From Pseudomonas graminis (lineage in GTDB: Bacteria; Pseudomonadota; Gammaproteobacteria; Pseudomonadales; Pseudomonadaceae), in contig NZ_CP053746.1 in assembly GCF_013201545.1 (NCBI RefSeq), positions 954,501-1,018,500 of the forward strand: a stretch of DNA of 64,000 nucleotides, read 5' to 3'. The translations under genes were made by a program, and so were the position numbers. The notes beneath the pieces are model-generated. The model worked only from the letters and a program-made list of their open reading frames with translations. It had not been told where the DNA came from and did no database searches. Positions 6,358 through 23,174 of the stretch are shown here, in pieces (position 1 is the first letter of the stretch; each line of letters starts with the position of its first letter).

Positions 6358-7347
6358 GTGAAGAAATTCTTGATTAGTCAGCTTACGGATAAGGACGAGG
6401 GTCAGTGCGCAGGGCTAGGCTCTGACCGTGCCGATGTCGCGATTCTGATGTGTACCTACAATGGTGCAGAGTACCTACGTGGGCAACTCGAATCCATTGC
6501 AAGCCAGTCCTTGCAAAGCTGGACGCTTTACGTATCCGACGATTCCTCCACTGACACGACGCTCGGCATCCTTGCTGAATACCAGCGTCAATGGGGCGAG
6601 CACAAGCTGGTGATCTTCAATGGGCCTTGCCAGGGGTTCGGCAAAAATTTCATATCCTTGCTGAAACGGCCGGAGGTCCAGTCACGCTACTACGCCTTTA
6701 GCGATCAAGACGATGTCTGGCTCAGCGACAAGCTGGAAAGAAGTGTGGAGCGCCTCGATGTATTTGCCGAGCAGACCCCAGCCCTGTATTGCTCAAGAAC
6801 TCGACTCATCGACGCGACTGGCAAGATCATCGGTTTTTCTCCTCTGTTCTCGCGACCGCCTTCGTTCAGGAATGCACTGGTTCAGAGCCTCGCGGGCGCC
6901 AACACCATGCTAGTCAACAACGCTGCGCGTGACCTGTTGCTTCGCGTGCCAGACGACGCGACGATCATCGCTCATGACTGGTTGACTTACATCATCGTCA
7001 CCGCGTGTGGTGGGCAGGCGATCTACGACGCTGAACCTACGCTCGACTACCGCCAGCATGGCGGCAATCTGATTGGGGCGAATGCGAGCCTCACGGACCG
7101 TGTTACCCGCATTAGCAAGATGCTGTCGGGCCGCTTCGTCGAGTGGAATGACATCAACCTTCAGATTCTGAAAGCCATGTCTGCTCAGATGACCGATGAC
7201 GCTCGTAACGTGCTTCAGCATTTCGATGCGGGCCGCTGCACGAATCTGGCGAAGAGGCTTTGCGAACTGCATCGTTCAGGGGTTTATCGGCAGACGTTTG
7301 CAGGTCGCGTGAGCCTGCTCCTCGCTGCGTCCCTCGGAAGAATATGA
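6358..7347 (+). CDS. Family 2 glycosyltransferase (rhamnosyltransferase-like)
   Basis: Cytoplasmic GT-A enzyme of 329 residues that should transfer a nucleotide-activated sugar, probably rhamnose, to the growing polymer. The nucleotide-binding start is VAILMCTYNGAEYLRGQLES, the Asp-rich motif is YVSDDSSTD, and the metal-binding segment is FSDQDDVWLSDKLERSV; the later DYRQHGGN motif is common in RfbF/WbbL-like rhamnosyltransferases. The start is a GTG at 6358 with a weak ribosome site; a TTG at 6370 is an alternative. The gene at 23175-24083 is a paralogue with the same motifs, so two related enzymes bracket the locus. Acceptor and linkage cannot be read from sequence. Confidence 0.8.
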   Translation: MKKFLISQLTDKDEGQCAGLGSDRADVAILMCTYNGAEYLRGQLESIASQSLQSWTLYVSDDSSTDTTLGILAEYQRQWGEHKLVIFNGPCQGFGKNFISLLKRPEVQSRYYAFSDQDDVWLSDKLERSVERLDVFAEQTPALYCSRTRLIDATGKIIGFSPLFSRPPSFRNALVQSLAGANTMLVNNAARDLLLRVPDDATIIAHDWLTYIIVTACGGQAIYDAEPTLDYRQHGGNLIGANASLTDRVTRISKMLSGRFVEWNDINLQILKAMSAQMTDDARNVLQHFDAGRCTNLAKRLCELHRSGVYRQTFAGRVSLLLAASLGRI

Positions 7348-8370: not shown

Positions 8371-9189
8371 ATGCAGACTTTTTCACCAACGCCCAAAGAG
8401 CTGATTGCCAGCGTCTGGCGGCACCGGGCCCTGATTACGGCGATGGTCAAGCGCGAAGTCATCGGGCGCTACAAAGGCTCAATGCTCGGAATGCTCTGGT
8501 CGCTCTTCAATCCGATCGTGATGCTCGCCATCTATACCTTTGTGTTTAGCGTGGTTTTCAAAGCACGCTGGAGCGTCGATAGCACCTCCAAAACTGAATT
8601 CGCCCTCATGCTCTTCGCAGGCCTGATGATCTTCGGGCTTTTCTCAGAATGCTTAACACGTGCGCCCAGTCTGATCCTGAACAACTCAAATTATGTCAAA
8701 AAAGTGGTGTTTCCTCTGGAGATCCTGCCATGGGTGACACTGGGTTCGGCGCTGTTTCATTTTGTTGTGAGTCTCACAGTTTGGCTCGTTGCTTACATGT
8801 TTTTGTTCGGCACACCGCATTTGACTGGGTTATACCTGCCTGTGGTGGTGTTGCCATTGATGATGCTGTCAATGGGGCTCGGTTGGTTCCTTGCCTCGCT
8901 TGGCGTATTCCTGCGTGATGTCGGGCAGATTGTGGGCGTTCTGACCTCCGTGCTGATGTTTATGAGCCCAATCTTCTATCCCGCCAGCGCGCTGCCTGAA
9001 TCTTACCGCGGCTATCTGATGTTGAACCCGCTGACGCCGATCATCGAAGACGTGCGAAGAGTTTTGTTTATGGGCACACCTCCGGAAGTAGATCAACTGC
9101 TGATCTCCTATGGCATTTCTATAATCGTGTTCTGGCTAGGCTTTGCCTGGTTCCAAAAAAGTCGTAAAGGGTTCGCCGATGTCCTCTGA
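8371..9189 (+). CDS. wzm: Polysaccharide ABC exporter, membrane subunit Wzm
   Basis: A 272-residue ABC-2 permease with six hydrophobic segments. The N-terminal signature REVIGRYKGSMLGMLWSLFN is typical of Wzm/KpsM-type O-antigen exporters. It forms the channel that flips completed, undecaprenyl-diphosphate-linked polysaccharide across the inner membrane. Its last 11 bases overlap the start of wzt, so the two are coupled. Presence of Wzm/Wzt, and no Wzx or Wzy in the locus, assigns the polymer to the ABC-transporter-dependent pathway. Confidence 0.93.
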   Translation: MQTFSPTPKELIASVWRHRALITAMVKREVIGRYKGSMLGMLWSLFNPIVMLAIYTFVFSVVFKARWSVDSTSKTEFALMLFAGLMIFGLFSECLTRAPSLILNNSNYVKKVVFPLEILPWVTLGSALFHFVVSLTVWLVAYMFLFGTPHLTGLYLPVVVLPLMMLSMGLGWFLASLGVFLRDVGQIVGVLTSVLMFMSPIFYPASALPESYRGYLMLNPLTPIIEDVRRVLFMGTPPEVDQLLISYGISIIVFWLGFAWFQKSRKGFADVL

Positions 9190-10522
9190 ACATGCAATTG
9201 AAATTGAGTCGCTGTCTAAATGCTTTCATATTTATGACACACCACGCGATCGACTTTTGCAGATGTTCTCCATGGGAGAAAAAAAGTACTTCCGCGAGTT
9301 CTGGGCGCTCAAAGCCGCTTCATTTTCGGTCAAACGAGGAGAAACCGTTGGGATAGTCGGGCGCAACGGGAGTGGCAAGTCGACTCTCCTGCAGCTGATC
9401 TGCGGAACGTTGAATCCGACTTCCGGGGCAATCACTACCAACGGGCGAATTGCTGCGCTGCTGGAATTAGGCTCGGGCTTCAATCCTGAGTTCAGTGGCC
9501 GAGAAAACGTCTTCATGAACGCCGCCGTCCTGGGGCTAAGCCAGGAAGAAACCAAACGCCGTTTTCATGACATTGAGTCCTTTGCCGAGATTGGCGACTT
9601 CATTGACCAGCCCGTTAAAACTTACTCGAGCGGGATGATGGTGCGACTGGCGTTCGCAGTAGCCATTAACGTTGACGCGCAAATACTTATAATTGACGAA
9701 GCATTGGCTGTTGGTGACGAACTATTTCAGCGCAAATGCTATGCAAAGATTGAAGCCCTCAAACAGCTCGGCGCCACGATACTGTTCGTTTCCCATTCCG
9801 GCGGAACGGTGATCGAGTTCTGCGACAGAGCAGTACTGTTGGACAGTGGCGAGGTATTGGCAATAGGTCAGCCCAAGGCGATCGTGAGCCGGTACCAGAG
9901 GTTGATCTATGCATCGGCAGAAAAGCGCGAGAAAATCAAAAACGAAATTCGGTTACAACTCGCTGATCTATCTGATGAACAGCAGTCGGCCGACGCTCAG
10001 GCAGAACCGGAAACTGTCGAAGCTGCATCGAGCAATGACTTCTTTGATCCCAACTTGAAACCTCAGAGCACCGTATCCTATGAGAGCAATGGAGCCCTCA
10101 TCCTGGAGCCGGCAATCTACACCCGAGCCAACAAACCGGCCAACACCCTGACCCGCGGTGAACATTACTTTTATCGATACAAAGTCAGGTTTAGCAAAAG
10201 CGTAAGCAACGTCCGATTCGGGATGATGATAAAGACGACGTCTGGATTCGAGCTGGGAGGAGCTGCATCCAGCCCCGTGGGCGGCGGAATAGTACATGCC
10301 GCTGCAGGCCAGGAAATAGACGTGGAATTTCAGTTCAATTGCAAGCTGAACATTGGCACTTATTTTTTGAACGCAGGCGTTACAGGCTTGATCGGAGAGG
10401 AAGACACTTATCTGCACCGTATTATCGACGCCTACCTTTTCAAGGTTAGCCCTACAGAAAATGATACTGCGACGGGAGTAGTCGATTTTGACTGTGTCTC
10501 CACCGTAAAGGATATTTTCTAA
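9179..10522 (+). CDS. wzt: Polysaccharide ABC exporter ATPase Wzt with C-terminal glycan-binding domain
   Basis: A 447-residue ATPase. Residues 1-250 are the nucleotide-binding domain with Walker A GRNGSGKST, signature YSSGMMVRLAF and Walker B ILIIDEALAVGD. A charged linker follows, then a beta-sandwich from about residue 290 to 440 of the Wzt C-terminal type. In E. coli O8/O9a that domain binds the modified non-reducing end of the O antigen and licenses export of finished chains only. The start is the ATG at 9179 (MSSEHAIEIES); the upstream extension to 9143 lies inside wzm. The extra domain predicts a terminally capped polymer, which bears on the sulfotransferase gene downstream. Confidence 0.94.
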   Translation: MSSEHAIEIESLSKCFHIYDTPRDRLLQMFSMGEKKYFREFWALKAASFSVKRGETVGIVGRNGSGKSTLLQLICGTLNPTSGAITTNGRIAALLELGSGFNPEFSGRENVFMNAAVLGLSQEETKRRFHDIESFAEIGDFIDQPVKTYSSGMMVRLAFAVAINVDAQILIIDEALAVGDELFQRKCYAKIEALKQLGATILFVSHSGGTVIEFCDRAVLLDSGEVLAIGQPKAIVSRYQRLIYASAEKREKIKNEIRLQLADLSDEQQSADAQAEPETVEAASSNDFFDPNLKPQSTVSYESNGALILEPAIYTRANKPANTLTRGEHYFYRYKVRFSKSVSNVRFGMMIKTTSGFELGGAASSPVGGGIVHAAAGQEIDVEFQFNCKLNIGTYFLNAGVTGLIGEEDTYLHRIIDAYLFKVSPTENDTATGVVDFDCVSTVKDIF

Positions 10523-10688
10523 TAATTCCTATGTACGTTGAGGTAGCCGAAGCATCGAGTCCCGGCTTGGTGATATCTATCATCGCAAGATTGCCGATAT
10601 GAATGAGGCTACCCTACCGAAGAGAGGCCTGAACGCCCTCGCTCGGCTGTGTTTATCAGGCCCGAGGCGTCAGGCCGAAGATATCTAG

Positions 10689-11079
10689 ACGCCCGCACCC
10701 AGAAACCTTTCTTTGATGCTGGGCATCGATGACTTTGTCGCCCATGATCGGGTAACCTTTGCCACGGCCATAACGCATGATTCAACAAAGACTACCTTTC
10801 TAAGTAACGACCATAGTTGGGTTGCACCACAAGTACTCCATACCGATGCAAAGACGGGTAAAACGCTTTTACTACTCAGAGACTCGTTTGCATCGGAGTT
10901 ACTGCCAATGCTGAAAGAACAATTTGAGACAATCATAACAGCTCATGTACAAGACGGTTTTTTTTCGAAAAGACCTCGTTGAACAATTTAAGCCAGATGT
11001 GATCGTAGTCGAAGTTATCGAGTCAGGCACCCGTCATTCGATGAGGGAAATGCCCGAACTGGAACTGAAGGCAGATTAA
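10689..11079 (+). pseudogene. Remnant of an AlgX/AlgJ-like SGNH acetyltransferase, frameshifted
   Basis: Reading from 10689 gives an open frame with LLLLRDSFASELLP, the Asp-Ser-Phe block seen in the catalytic domain of AlgJ/AlgX-type O-acetylation proteins. The frame stops at 10981 just after a run of eight T (10968-10975). With one T fewer the frame continues as DLVEQFKPDVIVVEVIES to a TAA at 11077-11079, the usual end of this domain. No N-terminal part or start codon is visible upstream. I read it as a 3' fragment of a dead gene with one later frameshift. Polymerase slippage at the T run could in principle restore the frame, but the missing 5' end argues against function. Confidence 0.6.
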
Positions 11080-11250
11080 AGAAGTCACTATAGATTGGTC
11101 AGCCCGATCTACAAGACACTGTCCCGTTGGTAGCGCTTGGTACCCGTGTTTTTTCTGACTCGGCTACCTACCCCTCAACATGAGGTGCTTATAAGAGCCT
11201 TCGTAAGTACCTCCAATATTGCTCCTTACAACACGGACCAATAATACTTT

Positions 11251-11841
11251 TTAAGGGGCGAGGTAACGATCCAAGCCGAGCAAGATATCGTTGACCGCGT
11301 CCTGAACGCTATAATCAACTGTATTTATCCTTATATCTGGCGCGACCGGCGGTTCGTACACAGAGTCCAGCCCCGTGAAGTTCTTGATCAACCCTGAACG
11401 CGCTTTGACATACAGCCCCTTGGGATCCCGTCGCTCACATTCAGCGAGGGGCGTATCAATGAATACCTCGACAAACTTATCCGACCCGATGATCTCCCGC
11501 GCCAGTCTTCTGTCGTCGCGGAAAGGCGAAATGAACGCAACTATGACTATCAGTCCGGCATCCGTGAACAGATTAGCGACTTGAGCAATGCGACGGATAT
11601 TTTCCTTGCGGTCCTGGTCACTGAAGCCAAGATCACCACACAATCCGGTACGTACGTTATCTCCATCTAGAAGATAGGTATGTTTGCCAAGTGCAAGCAG
11701 CTCTGTTTCCAACGCATTCGCAATAGTGGATTTACCAGCCCCGCTAAGCCCAGTCAGCCATATTACAACTGGACGCTGCTTTTTCAACGCAGATCTGAGC
11801 TGCTGATTAACTGCAGTCTCATAAAAACTCGTATTACTCAA
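11251..11841 (-). CDS. cysC: Stand-alone adenylylsulfate kinase CysC
   Basis: APS kinase of 196 residues: APS + ATP gives PAPS, the universal sulfate donor. The P-loop is GLSGAGKST (31-39), the substrate loop is LLDGDNVR, and FISPFR (103-108) holds the conserved Ser. The length equals free-standing CysC, not the CysNC fusion usual for Pseudomonas sulfate assimilation. Pseudomonas cysteine synthesis can reduce APS directly, so an extra PAPS-maker inside a polysaccharide locus points to sulfation of a product. The likely consumer is the sulfotransferase at 12805-14061, on the opposite strand after a gene-free gap of about 960 bp. Confidence 0.95.
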
Positions 11842-12804
11842 AATCTCTCTCCGTCAACGTCCGCTCGATGTGGCCTACATGTGCGCTGAAAAAGCTGCGT
11901 CATTGTGGAAGGGGCTGAACTTCAGCCCGTCAAACTCCGATCCTAGCATACACAGGCATCTGCTCGTATCACCATGCGGATGGCCGAGCCTTCGCGTAGC
12001 GGGTGGAGGCAATCGAATCACCACAATCGCCCGGATGGCGAGGCATGGGCTTCATTCGGTAACACAACGAGATGTATGCGATTGCCCGGAAGGTGATGAA
12101 AAGCGTCAACTCTTTTTATTTACCAATCATTTGCAATGCAGCCTAGCAACATTTGTATACATAGAAGTCGGATGCACTGGCTACGCCGGATGCCAAGGCG
12201 TGGGCGCTGTGGCCGGATCAGCCCTGGGGCGAGCGCCACGGCACGCTGACCAAACCCGCCCCAAACGTTTAGCAGGGGTAAAGCTTGAAAAATACAACCC
12301 TCAATATTCAGGCTTCATGGGGTACCACCTGTAAGCGCTAAAGAAGGAAGCGCCGGGATGTGTGCCGAACTCAGTCCGGATTTTGGCTCCGGCAGCGACG
12401 GATTAGGGCATAGAGCGCTCTGACAAGTGGCAACAACAAGCTCTATCCAGTATCGTGCCGCACGAGGAAAGGCCAGAACTTCAAGTAGCTCATCGCTACA
12501 GAGAACAGGCACCGGCCACCGCGCGTGGTTGGAGGTTAGGTGCCGCGGGCGGAGTACGTTCTGTGTCGCGCCGCTACTCGGATAGCTAGGACGTCGCGGC
12601 AAAACGTGGCATAAACTCATCACTCAGGCGATTTTCTAGGAATGGCAAGATGTCGCAATGGTGACGTCTGCGCTTTGTTGAGCGCGGCAACATGGAGGGG
12701 CTTTCCGCGCGGAGCACCCTCAGCCGTCATCAATCAGTGGGCATCATGGCTCCAACGATAGATCTCGGCATCTCACAAAGACTTTTTAGAAAGCGATTTG
12801 GTAA
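11842..12804. other. Gene-free stretch of 963 bp between cysC and the sulfotransferase
   Basis: Open frames here (for example 11870-12334 plus and 12315-12623 minus) have no recognisable domain, ribosome site or sensible composition. A short stretch at 12192-12270 reads well in one frame (WALWPDQPWGERHGTLTKPA, then stop), which could be the tail of a lost gene that I cannot identify. No terminal inverted repeats or transposase motifs were seen. It must contain the promoters of both flanking genes. Confidence 0.5.
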
Positions 12805-14061
12805 ATGGAAGACGATTCGACAAAGAGCGATAATTCCGGAGCGGACAGCAAAGTCGTACTGGTGCTGGGCATGCATAGAAGCGGCACGAGTGCCATTGCT
12901 GCGGGCCTTCAGCAGCTTGGAGTGGTGATGGGGACCTCTCTCTATCGAGGGGACGAATGGAACCCGAAAGGTTATTTTGAAGAGAAGAAATTCGTCGAAT
13001 TCAACACTCGGTTGTTGGATATGGCCGGGCTCCGCTGGGATTCCGCTTACCCATTCCCCGATAGCGCTGCCTCGCGCTGGGCCCCCCAAAGGACTGCAGC
13101 CTACGACTTGGTTGACGAGGTTTTTGGCGATACTCGCGTCTGGGGTTTCAAAGACCCCAGAATGTGCCTGCTTTCGGCTTTCTGGTCTGAGACATTCAGG
13201 TCTCGCGGGCTGACGCCTTGCCTGTTGCTGATGCTACGCGATCCTGCAGAAGTCGCGCTCTCATTGAATAGACGTGATGGGATAGCGGTCGAGCGGGCCG
13301 GCTGGCTCTGGTTCAATCATCTGCTTGGCAGCTTGGATTATCTCCAGGAGCACTCGGATACGCATTTAATAGATTTTTCTGACCTTCTGCATGCTCCTGC
13401 CGAGGTCATGCGAGGCTTGGCAAAATGGATCGGGATTTCCGTCAGCGAAAACTTGGTTGAAAGTTTTGCCTCAGATTTCATCTCTCCGGGGTTAGCGAAC
13501 GGTAAGGGCACCGCGAAACCGCTAATGCACCCGTTGATCATTAGCGCGTACACGTTTTGGCGCTCTGTGGCGAGCAACGGCATGTCTCCTAATATCGCTT
13601 TGCAGAGTCCGGAATGGCTAAGCATAAAAAGATCGTTTGAAGTCGAGATCAAACCAACGCTGCAAGCTGTTCAGAACTTTTTTGCAACGGACCGCCAGCT
13701 CACTGTAATGGACTCCCGTTTAATCGAACTTAGCGATGCACTACAGGTTACTGAAGAGCTAGCGCTGAAACGCTTGGCAGAGCTAACCTCGCAGGAGTCG
13801 CAATTAAAGCGGACACTTGATGCTCTCGCCTATGCTGAAAAGCTTGCGTTCGAAAGATTAGAGCGGATAGGAGAATTGGAACCGCAATTGAAGCTCACCA
13901 GCGATGGGCTAGCGTTTGCAGAAAACCTTGCGTTAACTCGACAAGCGACCATAGAACGGCTGGAGAAAGAGTTCACCCATGCTGCGGTCATCAAAGGCTA
14001 CGTCGTACCCGCTACTGACGAGGCGGACAGCGACACAAATAAGGACGAGACATCTAAGTGA
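12805..14061 (+). CDS. Sulfotransferase-family protein with C-terminal 28-residue-repeat coiled coil
   Basis: A 418-residue protein. Residues 15-260 look like a PAPS-dependent sulfotransferase: the 5'-phosphosulfate loop is LVLGMHRSGTS (19-29), the FKDPR block is at 115-119, and the 3'-phosphate motif is LRDPAEVALSL (144-154). From about residue 312 there are two full and one partial copies of a 28-residue unit (four heptads), with leucines in coiled-coil positions. No signal peptide, so it should act in the cytoplasm, where PAPS and the growing glycan are. The next gene overlaps it by 4 bp. The nearby cysC can supply PAPS. Sulfation of the glycan is inferred; a different nucleophile or acceptor is possible. 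Confidence 0.8.
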   Translation: MEDDSTKSDNSGADSKVVLVLGMHRSGTSAIAAGLQQLGVVMGTSLYRGDEWNPKGYFEEKKFVEFNTRLLDMAGLRWDSAYPFPDSAASRWAPQRTAAYDLVDEVFGDTRVWGFKDPRMCLLSAFWSETFRSRGLTPCLLLMLRDPAEVALSLNRRDGIAVERAGWLWFNHLLGSLDYLQEHSDTHLIDFSDLLHAPAEVMRGLAKWIGISVSENLVESFASDFISPGLANGKGTAKPLMHPLIISAYTFWRSVASNGMSPNIALQSPEWLSIKRSFEVEIKPTLQAVQNFFATDRQLTVMDSRLIELSDALQVTEELALKRLAELTSQESQLKRTLDALAYAEKLAFERLERIGELEPQLKLTSDGLAFAENLALTRQATIERLEKEFTHAAVIKGYVVPATDEADSDTNKDETSK

Positions 14062-15701
14062 CTAGCGGAGTAGCAGCCCAAGATCAGCACCAGAGCGATC
14101 TGCATGATACGTTGATGTGCCAAATCGATCACATCGCACTTCATCCATACGGCTTGTTCGGCTATGGCTGGGCGCTTGATAAAGCGGGCACCATTTCACA
14201 TGCCACCTTGGAACTTAAATATGCCGACGGACGCATTGAATCCGTCGACGTTTCAACTGGCCGAGTCAGGGAAGAGGTTGCCATTGTCTTTCCTCATCAT
14301 GCCCAAGCTGGCCAGTCGGGTTTCATGTTGATGGCGGGCTGGAGCGGGGTACCTCCCGAAAATGCGGATTTGGTATTTCAGCTTACAGATGGCAGAGTGG
14401 TTCGCAATGACCTCCACACTGCCATCAGCCAAGCCGCTCCAAGGGCAGGGGTAGCGGAAAGCCGCTACCTATTGAGGCGCGCTTGGGGGTACGTAAGGCG
14501 AGGCAAGCTAACCCAGTTAGTGCAGAAAGCCATAAGATACGGCAAGAGCAACCCTCGCTTGGGCGAGCCTGATGATCCGAGTGTCTCACAGCGGGTAAGA
14601 GGTAAGCACTGCCGTCTTGTGATTGACCACTCGATGGGAGGGGGGGCTAACCTTTTTCGCGAGCGCTTGGTGAAGCAATGGGTAGAGGCAGGTGACACCG
14701 TTGTGCTTCTTAGCTTCAAGGTGGCATCAATGGAGCCATTCATAGAAGTCCGTGACGGGGCCGGCAGCTTCGCCTCGGCATTGCAGCCATTAGAGTCGCT
14801 CATAGCGCTACTCAAACCTGCCAAGTCGGTAAGACTGTTTTTTAATTGCGCAGTGTCATTCCCGAATCCCGCGCTCATCCAGCAGCTCGTTCTGAATGTG
14901 AAGGCAAGGTACAAGTCTGAACTGATCGTTGCGATGCACGACTATTTTCTGGTCTGTCCTTCAAATTTCTTGCTGGACAGCACAGGCGTTTATTGTGGCG
15001 TCCCGTCGATCAGCCAATGCGAGTCATGCCTGCCCTACCACGGTGACGGCTTTGTTTCCCTTACGGGTGAGAGATCAATTACCAACTGGCGAAGCGTTTG
15101 GGGAGACCTATTCAACGCTGCGGACGAGATACGGTGTTTTTCAGATTCGACCAGACGACTCTTAGGCCGTGCGTACCCGGAAGTGGCAGCGAGGGCTACA
15201 CTGATTCCCCATGAAGTTCCGCCGCTTCGAACGGTACGAAACAGCCGCGCGGAAGAACCCGTTCTTACAATCGGCGTCATCGGATCCATATCCCATCACA
15301 AGGGAGCAGGGGTGGTTGCAGACCTCGCCAAGGCGATCGCCGCTTCGGGCGCCGGTGTACGCATTGTCGTTGTTGGCAGTGTGGACGCATGGTGTCCGCC
15401 AGAGGTAGTAACGCAGACCGGCCCGTACAAGCAAGATGATCTGCCCAAGATCATCGAGAAGCACAAAATCAATATTGCCCTGCTGCCATCGATTTGCCCC
15501 GAAACTTTCTCGTTTGTTGCGCACGAGATCATCTCAATGAATCTACCAATGATCTGCCTGGACCTTGGTGCCCAGGCTGACATCGTCCGTAGCCAACCTT
15601 CAGGACACGTTTCGGCACGTCAAGATGGACCAGGGCTACTTGAAGAAATTATCGCTTTTGATCGCTCCATGCATCCGTTAACAATGAAGGTTATCTCTTG
15701 A
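14058..15701 (+). CDS. GT4-like glycosyltransferase with an N-terminal beta domain
   Basis: A 547-residue protein. Residues about 20-120 look like a small beta-rich accessory domain (FGYGWALDKAGTISHATLEL, with FPHHAQAGQSGF) of a kind found ahead of transferase domains in O-antigen loci. From about residue 185 a GT-B fold follows: RLVIDHSMGGGANLFRERL at the start, IGVIGSISHHKGAGVVADLA at the second Rossmann half, and the nucleotide-sugar segment ICPETFSFVAHEIISMNLP. It starts at a GTG overlapping the sulfotransferase stop and itself overlaps the next gene by 4 bp, so the four genes 12805-18417 form one coupled operon. Sugar and linkage are unknown. Confidence 0.75.
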   Translation: MTSGVAAQDQHQSDLHDTLMCQIDHIALHPYGLFGYGWALDKAGTISHATLELKYADGRIESVDVSTGRVREEVAIVFPHHAQAGQSGFMLMAGWSGVPPENADLVFQLTDGRVVRNDLHTAISQAAPRAGVAESRYLLRRAWGYVRRGKLTQLVQKAIRYGKSNPRLGEPDDPSVSQRVRGKHCRLVIDHSMGGGANLFRERLVKQWVEAGDTVVLLSFKVASMEPFIEVRDGAGSFASALQPLESLIALLKPAKSVRLFFNCAVSFPNPALIQQLVLNVKARYKSELIVAMHDYFLVCPSNFLLDSTGVYCGVPSISQCESCLPYHGDGFVSLTGERSITNWRSVWGDLFNAADEIRCFSDSTRRLLGRAYPEVAARATLIPHEVPPLRTVRNSRAEEPVLTIGVIGSISHHKGAGVVADLAKAIAASGAGVRIVVVGSVDAWCPPEVVTQTGPYKQDDLPKIIEKHKINIALLPSICPETFSFVAHEIISMNLPMICLDLGAQADIVRSQPSGHVSARQDGPGLLEEIIAFDRSMHPLTMKVIS

Positions 15702-16966
15702 AAAAAATACACGTTTACACGAGCGCCGCTTGTAACTACATCCCCAAAGTTCGCGCGCTGATTGAGTCGATCAAAAAATTCCACCCTGAGTGGGTCGTCC
15801 ACTTGGCTTTGTCCGATGAAATTCCGGCAGGTCTTGATCTGTCCGCGGAGCCTTTCGATGAGATTCACCCACTGAGCAGTCTGGATATTCCAAACGCAAC
15901 AGGATGGGCGTTTTGTCACACAATCGTTGAACTCTCCACCGCAATTAAGCCTTTTCTGCTAGCTCGGCTGCTGGACCGCGAGGACTGCGCGGGTGTTATT
16001 TACATGGACCCAGATACTGTTCTCTTTTCGCCTTTGACCGATGTGATTGAGGCACTGGGCCATTCAAATATCGCCCTCACCCCCCATCAAATTGAGCCAG
16101 AACCGTCCTTGGCAGCGATCATGGACAATGAGATCTCCAGCCTAAAACACGGCATTTATAATTTGGGTTTCCTGGCCGTAGCGCCAACAGAGGTAGGCAA
16201 GCAATTCGCCCGCTGGTGGTCTGATCGTCTGTATTACTTCTGCCGCGCCGAAATTCATAACGGCTTGTTCACCGATCAACGCTGGATCGACTTGGCACCT
16301 GCTTTCTTTGAAGGCGTTTGCATTATGCGCACGTCGCGCTTGAACGTTGCACCATGGAACGCCACCACGCGCAAAATTACGGGCGAGCTACCAGATAGTG
16401 TGATGGTGGATGGGCAACCTTTGGGTTTCTATCACTTCACAGGTTTCGATAGCGGTGATCATCGTACGATGGCTCGCAAGAACGCGGGCGGACAGGAGAC
16501 AGTACATGCGCTCATCGAGTGGTATACCCGCACCATCGCCGAGCTGGGCAAAGACCCGCTGAGCAAAGTCGTCTGGGCATTTTCGCGATTTGACGACGGC
16601 ACGGTAATTCCGAAGCCAGCCCGGTTGATCTACCGAGAGCGACTTGATCTACAGCAGGCTTTCCCGAACCCTTTCTTGACTCAGGAAGGTGGCTATAAAG
16701 GATGGTGGGAATCCCAAGGCCGTATCGAATTCCCTTTGTTGTTTGACAAAAATGCTGCTCCAGCAGAAATGGTGCGCTTAACCAGCGCATTAACCCCTGG
16801 CTATCAAGCGGGTGGAACCGCCGCAGTGTTCAGCTCAAGCAGAGTACGCGACCACTTTGCTAATGCCATTGATGACCCGCGCCACGGCGTCAAGCTGGCA
16901 AAGCGAGCATGGGAAGTACTTCGGACTGAAGGGGTCGCGGGAATCGTGAAGCGAGTTTCGAAATGA
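15698..16966 (+). CDS. Glycosyltransferase with GT-A (GT8-like) fold
   Basis: A 422-residue cytoplasmic protein. The start KKIHVYTSAACNYIPKVRAL and the Asp-x-Asp segment GVIYMDPDTVLFSPL are the nucleotide-sugar and metal-binding elements of GT8-like retaining transferases. HGIYNLGFLAV and FTDQRWIDLAPAF are further family blocks. The start is a TTG overlapping the preceding stop (TTGA), and the stop overlaps the next ATG. The C-terminal 130 residues do not match a domain I know. The donor could be any hexose; it is not readable. Confidence 0.75.
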   Translation: MKKIHVYTSAACNYIPKVRALIESIKKFHPEWVVHLALSDEIPAGLDLSAEPFDEIHPLSSLDIPNATGWAFCHTIVELSTAIKPFLLARLLDREDCAGVIYMDPDTVLFSPLTDVIEALGHSNIALTPHQIEPEPSLAAIMDNEISSLKHGIYNLGFLAVAPTEVGKQFARWWSDRLYYFCRAEIHNGLFTDQRWIDLAPAFFEGVCIMRTSRLNVAPWNATTRKITGELPDSVMVDGQPLGFYHFTGFDSGDHRTMARKNAGGQETVHALIEWYTRTIAELGKDPLSKVVWAFSRFDDGTVIPKPARLIYRERLDLQQAFPNPFLTQEGGYKGWWESQGRIEFPLLFDKNAAPAEMVRLTSALTPGYQAGGTAAVFSSSRVRDHFANAIDDPRHGVKLAKRAWEVLRTEGVAGIVKRVSK

Positions 16967-18417
16967 CGCCTGAGGTGCCTTCAGCAGCGGTACACCACCA
17001 AGCGTCGGAGGATCAACAGAGCTATCGATGGCCGGTCGTCTCGAAGTCGCAGGCAGGTGTATTGATTTCGGTTATCGCCGGAGTTGCAGCCTGCACGTGC
17101 ATCGCGCTTCAGGCTCCTGGACAGGTCTCTATGGACACCAGCGTTCAGCTCTATGAAGCGTCAATCGGGCAGTCTATCAGCTACAACCCGCCCTTCATGT
17201 CTGCGCTGATGAGGTGGCTCGGGGGCGGCTCAGTTGCAACTTCGCTTTTGGTGCTGATAAACGCTGTTCTCCTTTACGGCAGCTTTGCCTTGACTGCCGT
17301 TTCGGTGGGCAATATGGGCCAAGACCAAGGGCGGGACCACCTCCCTTACTGGCGAATAATCCTCGCAATAGTGATTGTGCTGAACCCGATCATATTCCTG
17401 TACGCAGGCATCGTCTGGAAGGATGTGCTGTTCGCGTCACTTCTCACTTCAGGATGTGCTCTAACGCTTGCAGCGAGTACAGGTGGCATTTACAAACGCT
17501 ATGCCTGCGCACTAGGGGCCATCGCAGTTCTGGCAGCGGGAATGATCACCCGCCAGCAGGGTATCTTTATGGTCCCCTGCATCTTGCTGGCGGTGATTGT
17601 AGCTTTGTGGCCAAGCAATTCTCGGAACCAGAAGTTTTACGTGATTGCCGGGGTCATCGCCGCATTCTTAGTAAGCGTTACGGTACTCCAAAAAAGAGTT
17701 GACGCAGCTATCAAACCACCCGTGAAGGTCGCGACCTCTGTCGGGTTTCGTAATTTAATGATTTTCGATCTCGCAGGCATGGTAAGTGACTCAGACCGAC
17801 AGGCAAGCGATTACGCATTCCCAATTAGTCCAGAGCAGCTGACAGCCATCCGTCAGATCTACACACCGGAACGGGTGGACACCTTGGACCGTACCCCGTT
17901 TACTCAAGCTTGGGTTGGCCGGCTGCCGAACAGCGAGTTGAGTGATGCGTGGTGGGCGATGCTTAAACAAAATCCAGGGGCTTACGCAGAGCACCGGTTG
18001 TCGGCTTTTGGAAAGCTGATAGGTCTATATGGATTGGAGGGCACGCTTCCTATCCACATCGGAGTGGAAGGAAACCCGAGCTATCTTAAACAAGTAGGTA
18101 TCGGTGAAGGACGCGATCAGCGGAGTCAACTTATCTACGATATTGCGGTGCAATATTTTACTTGGCCTATATACCGTCACTTTTTTTGGTTAGGCGCTCT
18201 GGTCCTAGCGGTGGTGATTGGTGTCTATGCCCGCCTGCCACGTCGGCTACTGCTTATCAGTGCACTCATCGCTGCGGCTACCGCTTTGATGTACGCATCT
18301 TACCTGCCAACAGCCATTGCCGCAGACTTCAGGTATCTATTTGGTGCAATACCACTGGTCATGATGCTTTTCATGGTATTGCTCATGGGGGGACGAATAA
18401 CTTATTGGAAACGATGA
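16963..18417 (+). CDS. Polytopic membrane protein, possible GT-C-type glycosyltransferase
   Basis: A 484-residue inner-membrane protein with about ten hydrophobic helices. A periplasm-facing loop after the first helix carries SMDTSVQLYEASIGQ, the region where lipid-sugar-dependent GT-C enzymes keep their catalytic acid. A large soluble loop spans about residues 245-360. With the GtrB-like and flippase-like genes that face it from the other strand (18560-19890), it could be the periplasmic transferase of a three-gene glycan-decoration system. That is inferred from context; the protein family itself is uncharacterised to my knowledge. It is the last gene of the coupled operon from 12805. Confidence 0.6.
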   Translation: MTPEVPSAAVHHQASEDQQSYRWPVVSKSQAGVLISVIAGVAACTCIALQAPGQVSMDTSVQLYEASIGQSISYNPPFMSALMRWLGGGSVATSLLVLINAVLLYGSFALTAVSVGNMGQDQGRDHLPYWRIILAIVIVLNPIIFLYAGIVWKDVLFASLLTSGCALTLAASTGGIYKRYACALGAIAVLAAGMITRQQGIFMVPCILLAVIVALWPSNSRNQKFYVIAGVIAAFLVSVTVLQKRVDAAIKPPVKVATSVGFRNLMIFDLAGMVSDSDRQASDYAFPISPEQLTAIRQIYTPERVDTLDRTPFTQAWVGRLPNSELSDAWWAMLKQNPGAYAEHRLSAFGKLIGLYGLEGTLPIHIGVEGNPSYLKQVGIGEGRDQRSQLIYDIAVQYFTWPIYRHFFWLGALVLAVVIGVYARLPRRLLLISALIAAATALMYASYLPTAIAADFRYLFGAIPLVMMLFMVLLMGGRITYWKR

Positions 18418-18559: not shown

Positions 18560-18898
18560 TCAGGCCTTAACTGTGATGATGATGCCTAAGATGATGACTG
18601 CGACACCAATGAAGTACTGAGGCTGAAATTTTTCACCGAAGAACAGATGACTCCCAATTGGCACAATGACAAACGCCAACGCCATTAGCGGATAAACCTT
18701 CCCAAGCTCGATCTTCTGCAGCACCCACACCCAGGCAATCGTTGTAATACCATACAGCGCAAAAGCCGAAAACAGTGTGGTAAGGGTAGCTATATCAAAG
18801 AAGCTTCCAGTGCGTTGCAGAGTAGAGGCGCTCAATTTGAAGAGAATCTGCCCAGCAGCAATACCAAGGACGCATATAAGCGCTACGAAATAAATCAT
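18560..18898 (-). CDS. Small four-helix membrane protein, EamA/SMR type (ArnE/GtrA-like flippase candidate)
   Basis: A 112-residue protein with four membrane helices, ending in FIGVAVIILGIIITVKA, the typical last helix of small multidrug-resistance/EamA half-proteins. Members next to a polyprenyl-phosphate glycosyltransferase (ArnE/ArnF, or GtrA in function) flip undecaprenyl-phosphate-linked sugars. It overlaps that transferase by 4 bp, which supports the flippase role over drug export. Substrate unknown. Confidence 0.7.
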   Translation of the reverse strand: MIYFVALICVLGIAAGQILFKLSASTLQRTGSFFDIATLTTLFSAFALYGITTIAWVWVLQKIELGKVYPLMALAFVIVPIGSHLFFGEKFQPQYFIGVAVIILGIIITVKA

Positions 18899-19890
18899 TT
18901 TACTTTCAGCTCGTTGACGGATTTGTTTTTGCGCAACAAATGGAATGCTCGCTTAGGTACCGCCTGAACATCGTGTCCGATAAATGCGAGGATGAACTGG
19001 GTACCCAAGATAATTGGCAGCGCTGAAAGCATCACTGTTCCGGCTGGCGTAGGTACACCTGAACTCAGGGACGACGCCCAATGAGAGAACCCGAACACAG
19101 AACCTACGATCACCAAAATCAACCCCAAAGGCAGCTCTAACGATGCGAGCGACATGTCACGCAGGTAATAACTATAGAAAATGCGCTTGGCCAGATTCCG
19201 CATGTGCTTGACGAAAAACTCGCCAACGATTTTAGATATCTTGAGGTTGCTGACCTCATCGGCGTATTTAGCATCCATCGGAATATCTACGGCAACTGCT
19301 CGCAATGTATTCAGACGGAAAAGCATGTCAGTTTCAAAAAAATAACGCCGGCTGATTTTGTTGAAAGGTAGATGGCGCGCAACATCTCGATGGATTGCGG
19401 TATAGCCATTGGTCGGGTCAAAAAGATCCCAATAGCCCGAAGAAAGCTTAGTTAAAAACGACAGCGCGGCGTTACCGAACAGACGAATCTTGGGCATCTG
19501 ACGGATTTCCTCGAGGTCGAAGAACCGGTTCCCCTTGGTGTAGTCTGCCTCACCGTGAATGATGGGGGCGACAAATTCAGGGAGCAAACGAGGGTCCATT
19601 TGCCCATCGCCGTCAATTTTCACAAATATGTCCATGCCGTCGGCGATGGCAGCCTGATAGCCAGCCATAACGGCACCGCCCACTCCCTGATTTTGTTCGT
19701 TGCGTACGACGACTACTCGAGGATCAGTGCAGTGTTCTTCGACAAAACTGCCAGATTGCTCTGGACAACAGTCGTCGACCGCGTAGATTTTAGTCACCTC
19801 GCTTCCAATCTCGGCGATAACACCGAGGATATGTGCCTTGACCTTGTAGCAAGGGATGATTACCGCAATTTTCAAGTCTGTCATTGTCAT
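18895..19890 (-). CDS. GtrB/DPM1-like polyprenyl-phosphate glycosyltransferase
   Basis: A family 2 enzyme (331 residues) that should charge undecaprenyl phosphate with one sugar at the cytoplasmic face. IAVIIPCYKVKAHI binds the nucleotide, FVKIDGDGQMDPRLLPEF holds the metal-binding Asp residues, and two hydrophobic segments at about residues 240-310 anchor it, as in GtrB and ArnC. The frame is open to 19923. I chose the ATG at 19890 (MTMTDLKIAV); 19884 and 19923 are alternatives without better ribosome sites. It overlaps the small flippase-like gene by 4 bp. Confidence 0.75.
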   Translation of the reverse strand: MTMTDLKIAVIIPCYKVKAHILGVIAEIGSEVTKIYAVDDCCPEQSGSFVEEHCTDPRVVVVRNEQNQGVGGAVMAGYQAAIADGMDIFVKIDGDGQMDPRLLPEFVAPIIHGEADYTKGNRFFDLEEIRQMPKIRLFGNAALSFLTKLSSGYWDLFDPTNGYTAIHRDVARHLPFNKISRRYFFETDMLFRLNTLRAVAVDIPMDAKYADEVSNLKISKIVGEFFVKHMRNLAKRIFYSYYLRDMSLASLELPLGLILVIVGSVFGFSHWASSLSSGVPTPAGTVMLSALPIILGTQFILAFIGHDVQAVPKRAFHLLRKNKSVNELKVK

Positions 19891-20380
19891 GGTTTTCGCC
19901 GTTTCATACCTTTGATCGATCAAGAACTCACAATCGACATGGAGATCAGAGCCAGGGATGGGTCCACCGAGTGGCAGCCCTTTCGTAAATGGATTCGATG
20001 ATGTTTTGTCGGCCAGCAGCGCCCGCTCGAAAAGCAGCCATGGTAACCCACTTTAAGGCAGTACTGGCAGTCCTGGTGCCAACCGCGCCAACGGCCTGGT
20101 AAAACCGTCGCGCCCATGCCTGGGGCCGATCAAGGGCCGCAGCGACTACCTTCAGATCAAAAGAGGCTTGGCTAACCCTCACTCGCCACCTGTCCGCGCA
20201 CGGTATTGGGGCACTGTGCCCATTAGCGATGGATGATGTGCTCGACTATAAGTCAGCTCGGCACGGCTTAACAAAAGTCTGGACTTGAGCAATCACACTC
20301 ATCACACTTCAAAACTTACCAGATACGGGGTCGTGGGAAAAAGCCTAAAAACTAGGTAGCTTCGGCTACTCTCCTTCAGC
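19891..20380. other. Gene-poor stretch of 490 bp
   Basis: The minus-strand frame 19946-20182 (78 codons) has an even codon pattern but no start context and no recognised domain, so it may be a gene fragment. Nothing else is visible. The stretch separates the divergent GtrB-like and acyltransferase genes. Confidence 0.4.
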
Positions 20381-21630: not shown

Positions 21631-23007
21631 TTAGGGCGCAGCGGATAACCTGCGCATGACTTCAATTACCAGCGCTTTAGCATGGACCCGCAACTCAGGT
21701 ACGGCTGTCGCTTCCCAGTATGTAGCTTTAAGCATCGGCCCAACATAACTAAGCCATGGCGTCGCAATGTCCTGACTGCTCAATACTTCATAGCGAGGTG
21801 ATACATTAATCCCCAGCCCAAGATTATCTGAGGAAATAATATCGGCGCTGACAAGATTTCGCATCAACTCATCTTCTATTCTAGAGAGGCTAGTGCAAGG
21901 TCCAGTGCAATTGATTATCTTGTTGACCGCCACCCGATAAACGCGCTCAGAGCCACGCCGCGCCACGTCGACCTCACAGACATCCCCTTTGATCTCCACT
22001 GCGGTAACTCTACCTGCGATGAGTTCAACACTAGAATCCTGTATACCAGCTTCGAAAATGCGAGACGTTTCGGGCGCAATTCTGTGCCGATGTGAGTCCC
22101 AATATACCTGGAGGTGTCGCAGGAAACGCCTACGCTCGATTAACGGCAAACGCGACCACAATTCTGGAGTGATATTTCTGAGAGCCGTAATTACCTCCCT
22201 CCAATGCTCTGACGAGATACTTATACAGTTCCGTACGATCCTTAAATACGTCCGAACAGTAGGCGCAGCATTAAGAATTAAACTCTGGACATCCGTCGTA
22301 AAGCCATCAGCTGGGAGCTGGTCCCTGTGGGCTTTTGGGTGCAGCCCGCGGCGTGAGACCATAAAAACTTGCGCGGACGGCAGGGAGCGTTTGATGGACA
22401 ATAATACATCGACAGCAGTCAGTCCCGTCCCAATGAGCAGGACCCTGGGAGCATCCTTATGGGCAAGCTCCAAGTGATTCAACCACGGGTCTGCGATATA
22501 AAATGGCGAAAATGATTGTGGATTTACAGCCAGTGGATTTGAGGGGGCAAAATTTCCCAGCGCCAGAATGACATGATCAGCCAGGATTTTTGCTCCGCAA
22601 GCCATTTCCAACAAGACGTCGCTCCCCTTCTTTTCAACCGAGAGCACGTTACCCGCTACGCGCCGACAGGTGACACGACCTGCGCTTTGCGACTCAGCAA
22701 CGGCCAGGAGCTCCTCCAAATACACACCGTATAGCGAACGAGAGACGAAACTGCCGGAGTGAGTTTCAGTGTCTAAGCGACGGCAGAAACGCACAAAAGA
22801 GTCTGGATCATCCTGCAGTGCGGACATATTGCCAGCAGGCACGTTTAATAGATGGTGTGGGCTACTCGTTCCGTATGCTAAACCCCGCGCCATTTTGCCA
22901 GAACGATTTACCAGTATTAATTCTGCTCCTTGGGGAGCATGTCTCATGAATTCAACCGCAGCTACAGTGCCACTGAATCCCGCGCCGATGATCACCACGC
23001 GCCTCAT
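21631..23007 (-). CDS. FAD/NAD(P)-binding protein of the NAD_binding_9 type
   Basis: A 458-residue cytoplasmic flavoprotein. VVIIGAGFSGTVAAVEF binds FAD at the N terminus; RVLLIGTGLTAVDVLLS at about residue 185 is a second dinucleotide fold. HHLLNVPAGNMSAL is characteristic of the uncharacterised YdhS/NAD_binding_9 family. The ATG at 23007 follows GAGGA at a good distance; the frame extending to 23115 has no such signal. Its reaction is unknown, and its place in a polysaccharide locus is unexplained. A sugar-modifying oxidoreductase is possible but unsupported. Confidence 0.75.
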   Translation of the reverse strand: MRRVVIIGAGFSGTVAAVEFMRHAPQGAELILVNRSGKMARGLAYGTSSPHHLLNVPAGNMSALQDDPDSFVRFCRRLDTETHSGSFVSRSLYGVYLEELLAVAESQSAGRVTCRRVAGNVLSVEKKGSDVLLEMACGAKILADHVILALGNFAPSNPLAVNPQSFSPFYIADPWLNHLELAHKDAPRVLLIGTGLTAVDVLLSIKRSLPSAQVFMVSRRGLHPKAHRDQLPADGFTTDVQSLILNAAPTVRTYLRIVRNCISISSEHWREVITALRNITPELWSRLPLIERRRFLRHLQVYWDSHRHRIAPETSRIFEAGIQDSSVELIAGRVTAVEIKGDVCEVDVARRGSERVYRVAVNKIINCTGPCTSLSRIEDELMRNLVSADIISSDNLGLGINVSPRYEVLSSQDIATPWLSYVGPMLKATYWEATAVPELRVHAKALVIEVMRRLSAAP

Positions 23008-23174
23008 ACATATTCCTCTACCTGATTCGCAGCTAAGTTCCACCAAAGGCAAAACAAGATTCGGTACCGATTGCCGCGGTTGGACCCCGCACGTCTCCTG
23101 GCCCCATATGAACAAATGACTCGTATTCCGGGCGCATCAATCATCATGCCTGGTTTTCTCTTCCGATGAGGACC

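Follow-up and report, generated by a model that had tools for sequence, protein, structure and literature searches.

The window (the whole 64,000-nucleotide stretch of Pseudomonas graminis DNA analyzed here) contained ORFs predicted to encode an O-antigen ABC exporter, together with a sulfotransferase, an APS kinase, and glycosyltransferases. The exporter membrane subunit, Wzm (positions 8371 to 9189, forward strand), matched PF01061 (ABC2_membrane, 99 bits), and the exporter ATPase, Wzt (positions 9179 to 10522, forward strand, with a possible alternative in-frame TTG start at 9143), matched ABC_tran (90 bits). The glycan-binding type of domain that an initial annotation had recognized at the C terminus of Wzt was recovered as a Wzt_C match of 100 bits, the sole one in the whole genome. 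This sugar-binding domain (positions 10076 to 10519, forward strand) belonged to a sulfotransferase-linked clade and carried Arg426 (TTG numbering; positions 10418 to 10420) as its lid residue.

A solo APS kinase, CysC (positions 11251 to 11841, reverse strand; PF01583, 229 bits), was one of four APS kinase matches over the cutoff in the genome, three of which were strong. The product of APS kinase is PAPS, the sulfate donor. The cysC gene was inverted relative to its neighbors and flanked by stretches without long ORFs, so the gene set of the window may not be one operon. The ORF at positions 12805 to 14061 (forward strand) was assigned from its fold, motif residues, and predicted helix as a sulfotransferase with a C-terminal coil and is proposed here as the chain terminator. 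Its stop (14061) was overlapped by the start (14058) of an ORF encoding a GT4-type glycosyltransferase, a candidate polymerase component (positions 14058 to 15701, forward strand; PF13692, 32 bits; 58% in P. simiae locus L007). Two conserved ORFs followed on the forward strand, one encoding a 422-amino-acid protein without a Pfam match (positions 15698 to 16966; 85% in P. simiae and 75% in genome G013) and one encoding a 484-amino-acid protein, hydrophobic by eye (positions 16963 to 18417; 49% in P. simiae and 61% in G013). Other ORFs were annotated as encoding a GT2 glycosyltransferase (positions 6358 to 7347, forward strand; PF00535), whose P. simiae counterpart (44%) also adjoins a sulfotransferase, a GT2 protein resembling polyprenyl-phosphate sugar synthases (positions 18895 to 19923, reverse strand; PF00535; 74% in P. 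simiae), and an FAD/NAD(P)-binding protein recurrent in APS-kinase-bearing O-antigen loci (positions 21631 to 23115, reverse strand; PF13454, 116 bits).

Both P. simiae L007 and G013 (locus L115) carried gene sets resembling that of the window, the latter with no APS kinase within the 19 kb examined. Matches between the window and another genome of the same species (G020) were limited to O-antigen genes, and no common chromosomal site was found in this comparison. Plasmid records yielded nine partial matches, all with <60% identity and none covering 80% of the query.

The sulfotransferase and its predicted C-terminal helix

Structure prediction for the product of positions 12805 to 14061 returned a head with a sulfotransferase fold followed by a single helix of 128 residues (residues 269 to 396; positions 13609 to 13992, forward strand). 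Residues 22 to 29, R145, and S153 were invariant across 25 aligned sequences; we take these to be the PAPS-binding motifs, with residues 22 to 29 as the 5'-phosphosulfate loop and R145/S153 as the 3'-phosphate Arg/Ser. The fold and the invariant motif residues bear out the earlier description of the protein as sulfotransferase-like. The product did not reach the Pfam cutoffs (Sulfotransfer_1, 18.0 bits of 22; Sulfotransfer_3, 17.1 bits of 27), and methyltransferase and kinase models did not match it. The reading that it is no sulfotransferase, because it falls below the Pfam cutoffs, was rejected given the presence of the fold. Judged from sequence, the O-antigen very probably undergoes PAPS-dependent sulfation. 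Acceptor specificity is unreadable from sequence, which would allow a target elsewhere (lipid A, a core sugar, or a lipid-linked primer) and no role in chain ending; this alternative is highly improbable, as it leaves unexplained both the fusion of related sulfotransferase heads in other loci to RgpF, WbsX, or GT2 glycosyltransferase parts and the association with a single class of Wzt domain.

The coiled coil with 28-residue repeats noted from the sequence corresponds to the predicted 128-residue helix, and the repeats proved real, chance having been tested and rejected as their origin. The model thus joins a modifying enzyme to a long coil, as in polymerase-terminator systems. The last 21 residues (398 to 418) were modeled with low confidence and no predicted helix, and no counterpart of the C-terminal membrane helix of WbdD was apparent in them. 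The coil call for the window rests on structure prediction and not on a home-made coil detector, which flagged 27 of 82 sulfotransferase ORFs versus 7 of 526 other ORFs of at least 300 amino acids and was too blunt, missing the coil of the window itself. Tails of 29 proteins ranged from 88 to 404 residues, a spread that offers natural material for testing how a ruler works. From this architecture (a distal enzyme and a long coil of variable length), the modeled rod appears rather likely to act as a ruler.

Cap enzymes encoded after Wzt in related loci

The gene slot that follows Wzt contained other coil-borne cap enzymes in related loci, predominantly methyltransferases. Among 40 surveyed Pseudomonas Wzt_C loci (the author's pick among the matches listed, with open frames of at least 442 amino acids), Wzt was followed by a methyltransferase-headed protein in 25 and, in 1, by a pyruvyl transferase whose tail resembles a coil. 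A Wzt with the domain was encoded directly upstream in 23 of the 77 loci that had a forward-strand sulfotransferase ORF; at locus L062, a sulfotransferase was present, but Wzt was distant and its domain dissimilar. An APS kinase gene lay in the stretch examined for 10 of 27 sulfotransferase-linked Wzts versus 0 of 26 methyltransferase-linked Wzts. When the head of the G020 protein was compared with PDB sequences, it matched methyltransferases and not WbdD; where enzymes are termed methyltransferase/kinase type, "kinase" refers to a layout like that of K. pneumoniae O7 and to a kinase-like motif recognized by visual inspection. The suggestion that a sulfotransferase stands in the methyltransferase/kinase place of WbdD agreed with most comparative tests (the shared slot and the link between domain and cap enzyme), which support it without proving it.

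Alternatively, the sulfotransferase could decorate internal repeats, with the coil as an anchor in the synthase complex and no ruler; the Wzt domain would then read a repeat that is sulfated or typical in some other way. Such an arrangement would suit five loci in which the sulfotransferase adjoined a Wzt without the domain, and thus without such a cap reader, but it sits poorly with the position of the window enzyme in the slot of methyltransferase-coil proteins, and it is considered unlikely.

Wzt domains and pocket residues

Domains of all 26 other sulfotransferase-linked Wzts were 38 to 55% identical to the window domain, whereas all 26 methyltransferase-linked domains were only 17 to 29% identical, in a sample that was uneven (methyltransferase rows all from Pseudomonas, sulfotransferase rows from many phyla) and left out Wzt ORFs of <380 or >540 amino acids. 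The methyltransferase-linked rows came from 25 loci, with the enzyme in the next ORF in 24 and in the second ORF in L170; L160 was counted twice for its two Wzts. Mere species kinship was rejected as the source of the likeness, since the methyltransferase loci of the window's own genus are the dissimilar ones. The domain tree contained one clade of 31 rows (SH-aLRT, 100), 30 of them from sulfotransferase loci when L013, L068, and L077, which were drawn by sulfotransferase similarity, are relabeled as such in the tree and lid-residue counts; at these three loci, a look at the three following ORFs yielded no sulfotransferase, and the sulfotransferase profile matched none of the called ORFs of L077. 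The core clade spanned eight phyla. The sulfotransferase label required two changes in the domain tree versus four in the ATPase tree.

In the reverse direction, the Wzt-domain profile matched 20 of 249 Pseudomonas genomes, 17 of which have a sulfotransferase in the locus (PF13469-like in 10, PF03567 in 6, and PF00685 in 1); the remaining 3 have DUF4915 instead and no recognized sulfotransferase. Control loci, chosen among the matches listed, had none (0 of 39; Fisher P = 4e-12, ignoring relatedness), the control being the 40 survey loci minus L186, whose domain falls within the sulfotransferase clade. In a sample across phyla, the domain profile matched 11 of 398 genomes, with a sulfotransferase within 20 kb in 9 of these (gene adjacency in G549, locus L208, was taken from match coordinates). 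No sulfotransferase was found near the domain in G672, and in G541 the two were on different contigs.

Arg occupied the lid position of the domain pocket in every sulfotransferase row (30 of 30), in every row with the main type of methyltransferase (18 of 18), and in E. coli O9a, whose chains carry a phospho-methyl cap; Trp occupied it in 8 of 8 small-methyltransferase (methyltransferase-only) rows and in Aquifex. A lid Arg, as read from these alignments, would fit an anionic cap, and its presence in both the window domain and E. coli O9a argues against decoration of internal repeats. If this holds, cap charge could be guessed from one pocket residue. The methyl-capped O-antigen system of Aquifex aeolicus has a Wzt domain of the same family as the window's; among the pocket residues given in the available part of its description (PMC9445017), Trp362, which lids the methyl cap, and Thr346 correspond to Arg and Asn in the window. 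The Wzt-domain profile (A2) gave only a weak match to the Aquifex structure 6o14 (E = 0.063) and a stronger one to E. coli 2r5o (E = 1.5e-7). Clade-specific residues faded outside the core clade: G761 keeps Tyr342/344/346 and Asn410 and not Arg358, and G454, G541, and G471 keep few.

Co-inheritance alone, with the exporter and sulfotransferase genes forming one cassette, the domain clade marking ancestry, and the domain reading another feature of the polymer, would account for the adjacency of the genes in many loci and for the single change that also parts sulfotransferase from methyltransferase rows in the ATPase tree. It is quite improbable, however, in that the ATPase halves overlap in identity between the two groups while the domains do not, the profile also matches Wzts paired with PF00685 (G194 and G761) and PF03567 (six Pseudomonas genomes) sulfotransferases, at lower scores of 75 to 87 bits, and the lid residue is of a kind suited to an anionic cap. 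A domain that reads the resulting cap, as initially suggested, agreed with most comparative tests (domain identities, reverse profile tests, and lid residue), again as support and not proof. We infer that the sulfate is probably terminal and read by Wzt. Sulfate may, at about even odds, be a general end cap for ABC-exported surface polysaccharides, with several sulfotransferase families (PF13469-like, PF00685, and PF03567) each mounted on coils to act as terminators and the cap being read by related Wzt domains that have anion-type pockets. That DUF4915, which occupies the corresponding slot in some loci with an APS kinase, is a fourth, unrecognized sulfate-cap enzyme is a speculative and rather doubtful extension.

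Proposed mechanism and comparison with known systems

In the proposed mechanism, CysC and the other sulfate-activating enzymes of the genome would produce PAPS, and glycosyltransferases would extend a lipid-linked chain. The coiled-coil rod would hold the sulfotransferase head away from the polymerase, and the nonreducing end would be sulfated once the chain was long enough to reach the head. Sulfation would stop growth and set the modal chain length, and binding of the sulfated end by the Wzt domain would license export through Wzm-Wzt. We put at roughly 60% the probability that the locus, as predicted, is an ABC-transporter-dependent polymerase-terminator O-antigen system with a sulfotransferase as its terminator. 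If confirmed, sulfate would be added to the few known caps (methyl, phospho-methyl, and Kdo) as a new chemistry for a known bacterial quality-control step.

Polymerase-terminator systems include those of E. coli O9a and K. pneumoniae O3, O4, O7, and O12 (PMC11231755). As described in the available text of that paper, they resemble the window in Wzm-Wzt export, a Wzt domain that reads the chain end, and a terminator on a long coil, the terminator enzyme being free-standing or fused to glycosyltransferases; the window itself has a Wzm-Wzt exporter and a cap-reading type of domain on Wzt. The known terminator heads are a methyltransferase, a methyltransferase-kinase, or a Kdo transferase (PMC11231755), whereas the window head is a sulfotransferase; WbdD proper has a methyltransferase and/or kinase head. 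The main text of PMC11231755 contained no word starting with "sulf," and that of a P. protegens O-antigen paper (PMC10715155) contained no sulf-, wzt, ABC transporter, coiled, or chain length. No sulfate-capped O-antigen was seen in the literature searched, among the titles and abstract starts listed, in keeping with the initial remark that no sulfate-capped, ruler-controlled system was known to have been described.

The capsules of Vibrio sp. KMM 8419 and Cobetia marina KMM 1449 (PMC11641403 and PMC11766843, in the portions available) share with the window sulfotransferase and PAPS genes in the cluster of an ABC-exported polysaccharide. Their sulfate lies in the repeat unit, which favors decoration of internal repeats, but both capsules export by a Kps-type system, and neither a cap nor a ruler was seen to be proposed in those portions. 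In the wbsalmo cluster of Aeromonas salmonicida (PMC4483657, as partly available), a 216-amino-acid sulfotransferase-domain protein is encoded directly 3' of wzt, a likeness to the window; the comparison is by description only, the authors gave the protein no functional assignment, and no coil is mentioned there for it. The following gene encodes a WbbB-like protein, and the terminator may be another enzyme in this organism, because the Klebsiella O12 relative of that protein ends chains with Kdo. The O-antigen of A. salmonicida apparently contains no sulfate (PMC4483657), which argues against internal decoration and is what a single sulfate on each chain would predict, an amount easily missed by repeat-unit chemistry. 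Capping by sulfate, if true, may explain why a sulfotransferase gene lies in this cluster although sulfate is not seen in the repeat unit.

Organization of the locus and its sulfotransferase

The genome carrying the window consists of one contig of 5.52 Mb, and the O-antigen locus spans 6 to 27 kb of the window. The locus contained, in order, genes for a GT2 enzyme, RmlC, Wzm, Wzt, an inverted APS kinase, the sulfotransferase with its coil, a GT4-type enzyme, two conserved proteins, a second GT2 enzyme, an acyltransferase, an FAD protein, a third GT2-like protein, RmlA, RmlD, and RmlB (ORFs called by a simple script; Rml names and the third GT2-like protein assigned by reading the sequence). 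The APS kinase gene (cysC; 11251 to 11841, reverse strand) was flanked by stretches without long ORFs (10523 to 11250 and 11842 to 12804), and two frames beside it (10689 to 10982 and 10939 to 11079) look like fragments of a single broken gene. In a second genome of the same species (G020), the sulfotransferase head had no match at E 1e-10 and the protein after Wzt was methyltransferase headed, so the locus is strain-variable.

The protein encoded at 12805 to 14061, described in the initial annotation as sulfotransferase-like with a C-terminal coil of 28-residue repeats, matched no Pfam model above its cutoff. Both parts of that description were borne out. Structure prediction of the single protein gave a sulfotransferase fold and, from residue 269 onward, a single helix of 128 residues; the sulfotransferase motif residues were unchanged across 25 aligned sequences, and the 28-residue repeat was far above chance expectation. 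Among 8,000 candidates scored, 1,692 proteins matched at E ≤0.001. Across the window protein and 28 relatives, the head was kept while tail length ranged between 88 and 404 residues; in 123 of 127 cases, successive repeats were spaced by steps that coiled coils tolerate.

Largely the same gene set was found in P. simiae (GT2, sulfotransferase-coil [567 amino acids], GT4, two conserved proteins, Wzm, Wzt, APS kinase, and second GT2). The locus of genome G013 (L115) encoded Wzm, Wzt, a small second sulfotransferase, the sulfotransferase-coil, GT4, and two conserved proteins, with APS kinase absent from the 19 kb fetched. This second sulfotransferase (L115, 12906 to 13622) differs from the coil-bearing one directly downstream. 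In Achromobacter protein P0013, visual inspection suggests that a similar sulfotransferase (residues 1 to 230) is fused ahead of the coil-bearing one; from sequence, the pairs appear as if made for two sulfates or two sites. An Achromobacter locus (L070) encoded a 1,543-amino-acid protein with a sulfotransferase head and RgpF, WbsX, and GT2 parts, upstream of which lay a protein with an APS kinase part.

Association of the Wzt domain with the sulfotransferase

Of 77 loci retrieved through similarity to the sulfotransferase (forward match), 23 had Wzt (9179 to 10522 in the window) with its C-terminal domain (10076 to 10519) directly upstream of the sulfotransferase; these came from Pseudomonadota, Bacillota, Thermodesulfobacteriota, Nitrospirota, and Acidobacteriota. 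Five others (L017, L031, L053, L061, and L078) had a Wzt-like ATPase without the domain in this position, which makes the same cap check impossible there. Wzt_C matches occurred in 181 of 398 genomes, and 40 Pseudomonas loci picked among the matches listed for these were surveyed. A methyltransferase-headed protein followed Wzt in 25 (24 as the next ORF and 1 as the second). One locus had in its place a pyruvyl transferase whose tail resembles a coil, and one (L186) a protein with a DUF4915 head; the script assigned no cap enzyme in 13. The polysaccharide pyruvyl transferase (L166, 8447 to 9844), immediately 3' of Wzt, is a possible pyruvate cap enzyme.

The window Wzt domain was 38 to 55% identical to all 26 other sulfotransferase-linked domains and 17 to 29% identical to all 26 methyltransferase-linked domains; for the ATPase halves, the ranges were 52 to 76% and 51 to 63%, respectively. 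Sampling was uneven, with methyltransferase rows from Pseudomonas alone and sulfotransferase rows spread over many phyla. Of 19 further rows, L186, L013, L068, and L077 fell in the high group (40 to 48%) and 15 in the low group (18 to 28%). On the domain tree, 30 rows from sulfotransferase loci and L186 formed one clade (SH-aLRT, 100; quick search), which, beyond the five phyla above, includes rows from Planctomycetota, Spirochaetota, and Campylobacterota. The sulfotransferase label required two changes on the domain tree versus four on the ATPase tree, which makes the domain the sharper marker. Each tree divided sulfotransferase from methyltransferase rows by one change, however, so the exporter and enzyme genes may share descent.

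A profile of 24 domains (23 from sulfotransferase loci and L186) was then searched without requiring a sulfotransferase. In the phylum sample, 11 of 398 genomes matched at E 1e-15, and a sulfotransferase lay within 20 kb in 9 (G000, G590, G503, G549, G449, G591, G454, G471, and G761), against a base rate for the window type of 20/398 at E 1e-25. In G541, the sulfotransferase and domain were on separate contigs, and in G672 none was found near the domain. The G672 Wzt (L202, 9797 to 11137; 154 bits to the sulfate-type domain) has four neighbors with Pfam matches, all metabolic-looking (DRL oxidoreductase, CoA transferase, aldo/keto reductase, and enoyl-CoA hydratase).

In Pseudomonas, 20 of 249 genomes matched, 12 at ≥160 bits and 8 at 75 to 87 bits. 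The sulfotransferases were of the window type (10), PF00685 (1; G194, which shares 96% identity with a G761 protein assigned by Pfam), and PF03567 (6; Pfam tested in 5, G213 by 82% identity); the other three loci had DUF4915. A sulfotransferase, mostly as the next gene, was present in 17/20 of these loci versus 0/39 control loci (the surveyed loci minus L186); Fisher values for such counts ignore relatedness and are a guide only. An APS kinase gene was present in 8/20 versus 0/39 fetched stretches, some of which stop short of the locus end. All six PF03567 sulfotransferases had a long proline-free tail. In five of them (L235 to L239), total length ranged from 453 to 618 amino acids, while each head shared 78 to 95% identity with one or the other of two reference members of the five; this natural variation would suit a test of the ruler.

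DUF4915 proteins followed a Wzt of the sulfate-type class in L186 (8423 to 12526; Pfam), L228 (5410 to 9603; Pfam), L229 (10585 to 13218; assigned by identity), and L233 (9464 to 10453; Pfam), as the next ORF in three loci and at a distance of one or two ORFs in L233. Three of these four stretches carried an APS kinase gene, and none of the four yielded a known sulfotransferase; DUF4915 is a candidate new sulfate-cap enzyme. The FAD/NAD(P)-binding protein (window, 21631 to 23115) co-occurred with APS kinase in 9/9 sulfotransferase or control loci having it and in 2/4 of the profile-matched Pseudomonas loci, one of the other two being cut by the stretch end.

Pocket residues and known systems

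Excerpts of an Aquifex Wzt study (PMC9445017) place Asn313, Ile299, Leu300, Thr346, Ala348, and His350 in the pocket, with Trp362 as lid, and report that Trp362 to Leu essentially abolished LPS binding. These positions were transferred by alignment. The Trp362 position was Arg in 30/30 sulfotransferase rows, 18/18 rows with the main type of methyltransferase (probably a methyltransferase-kinase), E. coli O9a, and the sole pyruvyl-transferase row (L166), and Trp in 8/8 small-methyltransferase rows and 12/14 rows without an assigned cap. The Thr346 position was Asn in 30/30 sulfotransferase rows and Ser in 18/18 main-type methyltransferase rows and O9a, and the Val296 position was Arg in 28/30 sulfotransferase rows and in 0/40 rows across the three remaining listed groups. 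The pattern is strong, but rows inside each group are related and so are not independent trials, and clade-specific residues faded in weaker domain matches. We read the lid Arg, on aligned residues, as a putative mark of anionic caps and the lid Trp as one of methyl.

No sulfate-capped O-antigen was seen among the titles and abstract openings listed by the literature searches. According to excerpts of PMC4483657, wzt of Aeromonas salmonicida is followed immediately by a gene encoding a sulfotransferase-domain protein, yet sulfate was not found in the O-antigen structure; we infer that one sulfate per chain would explain this, and the terminator there may instead be a WbbB-like protein. As judged from sequence and predicted structure, the window system is likened to WbdD systems in its way of working, but the head of its protein is not that of WbdD.
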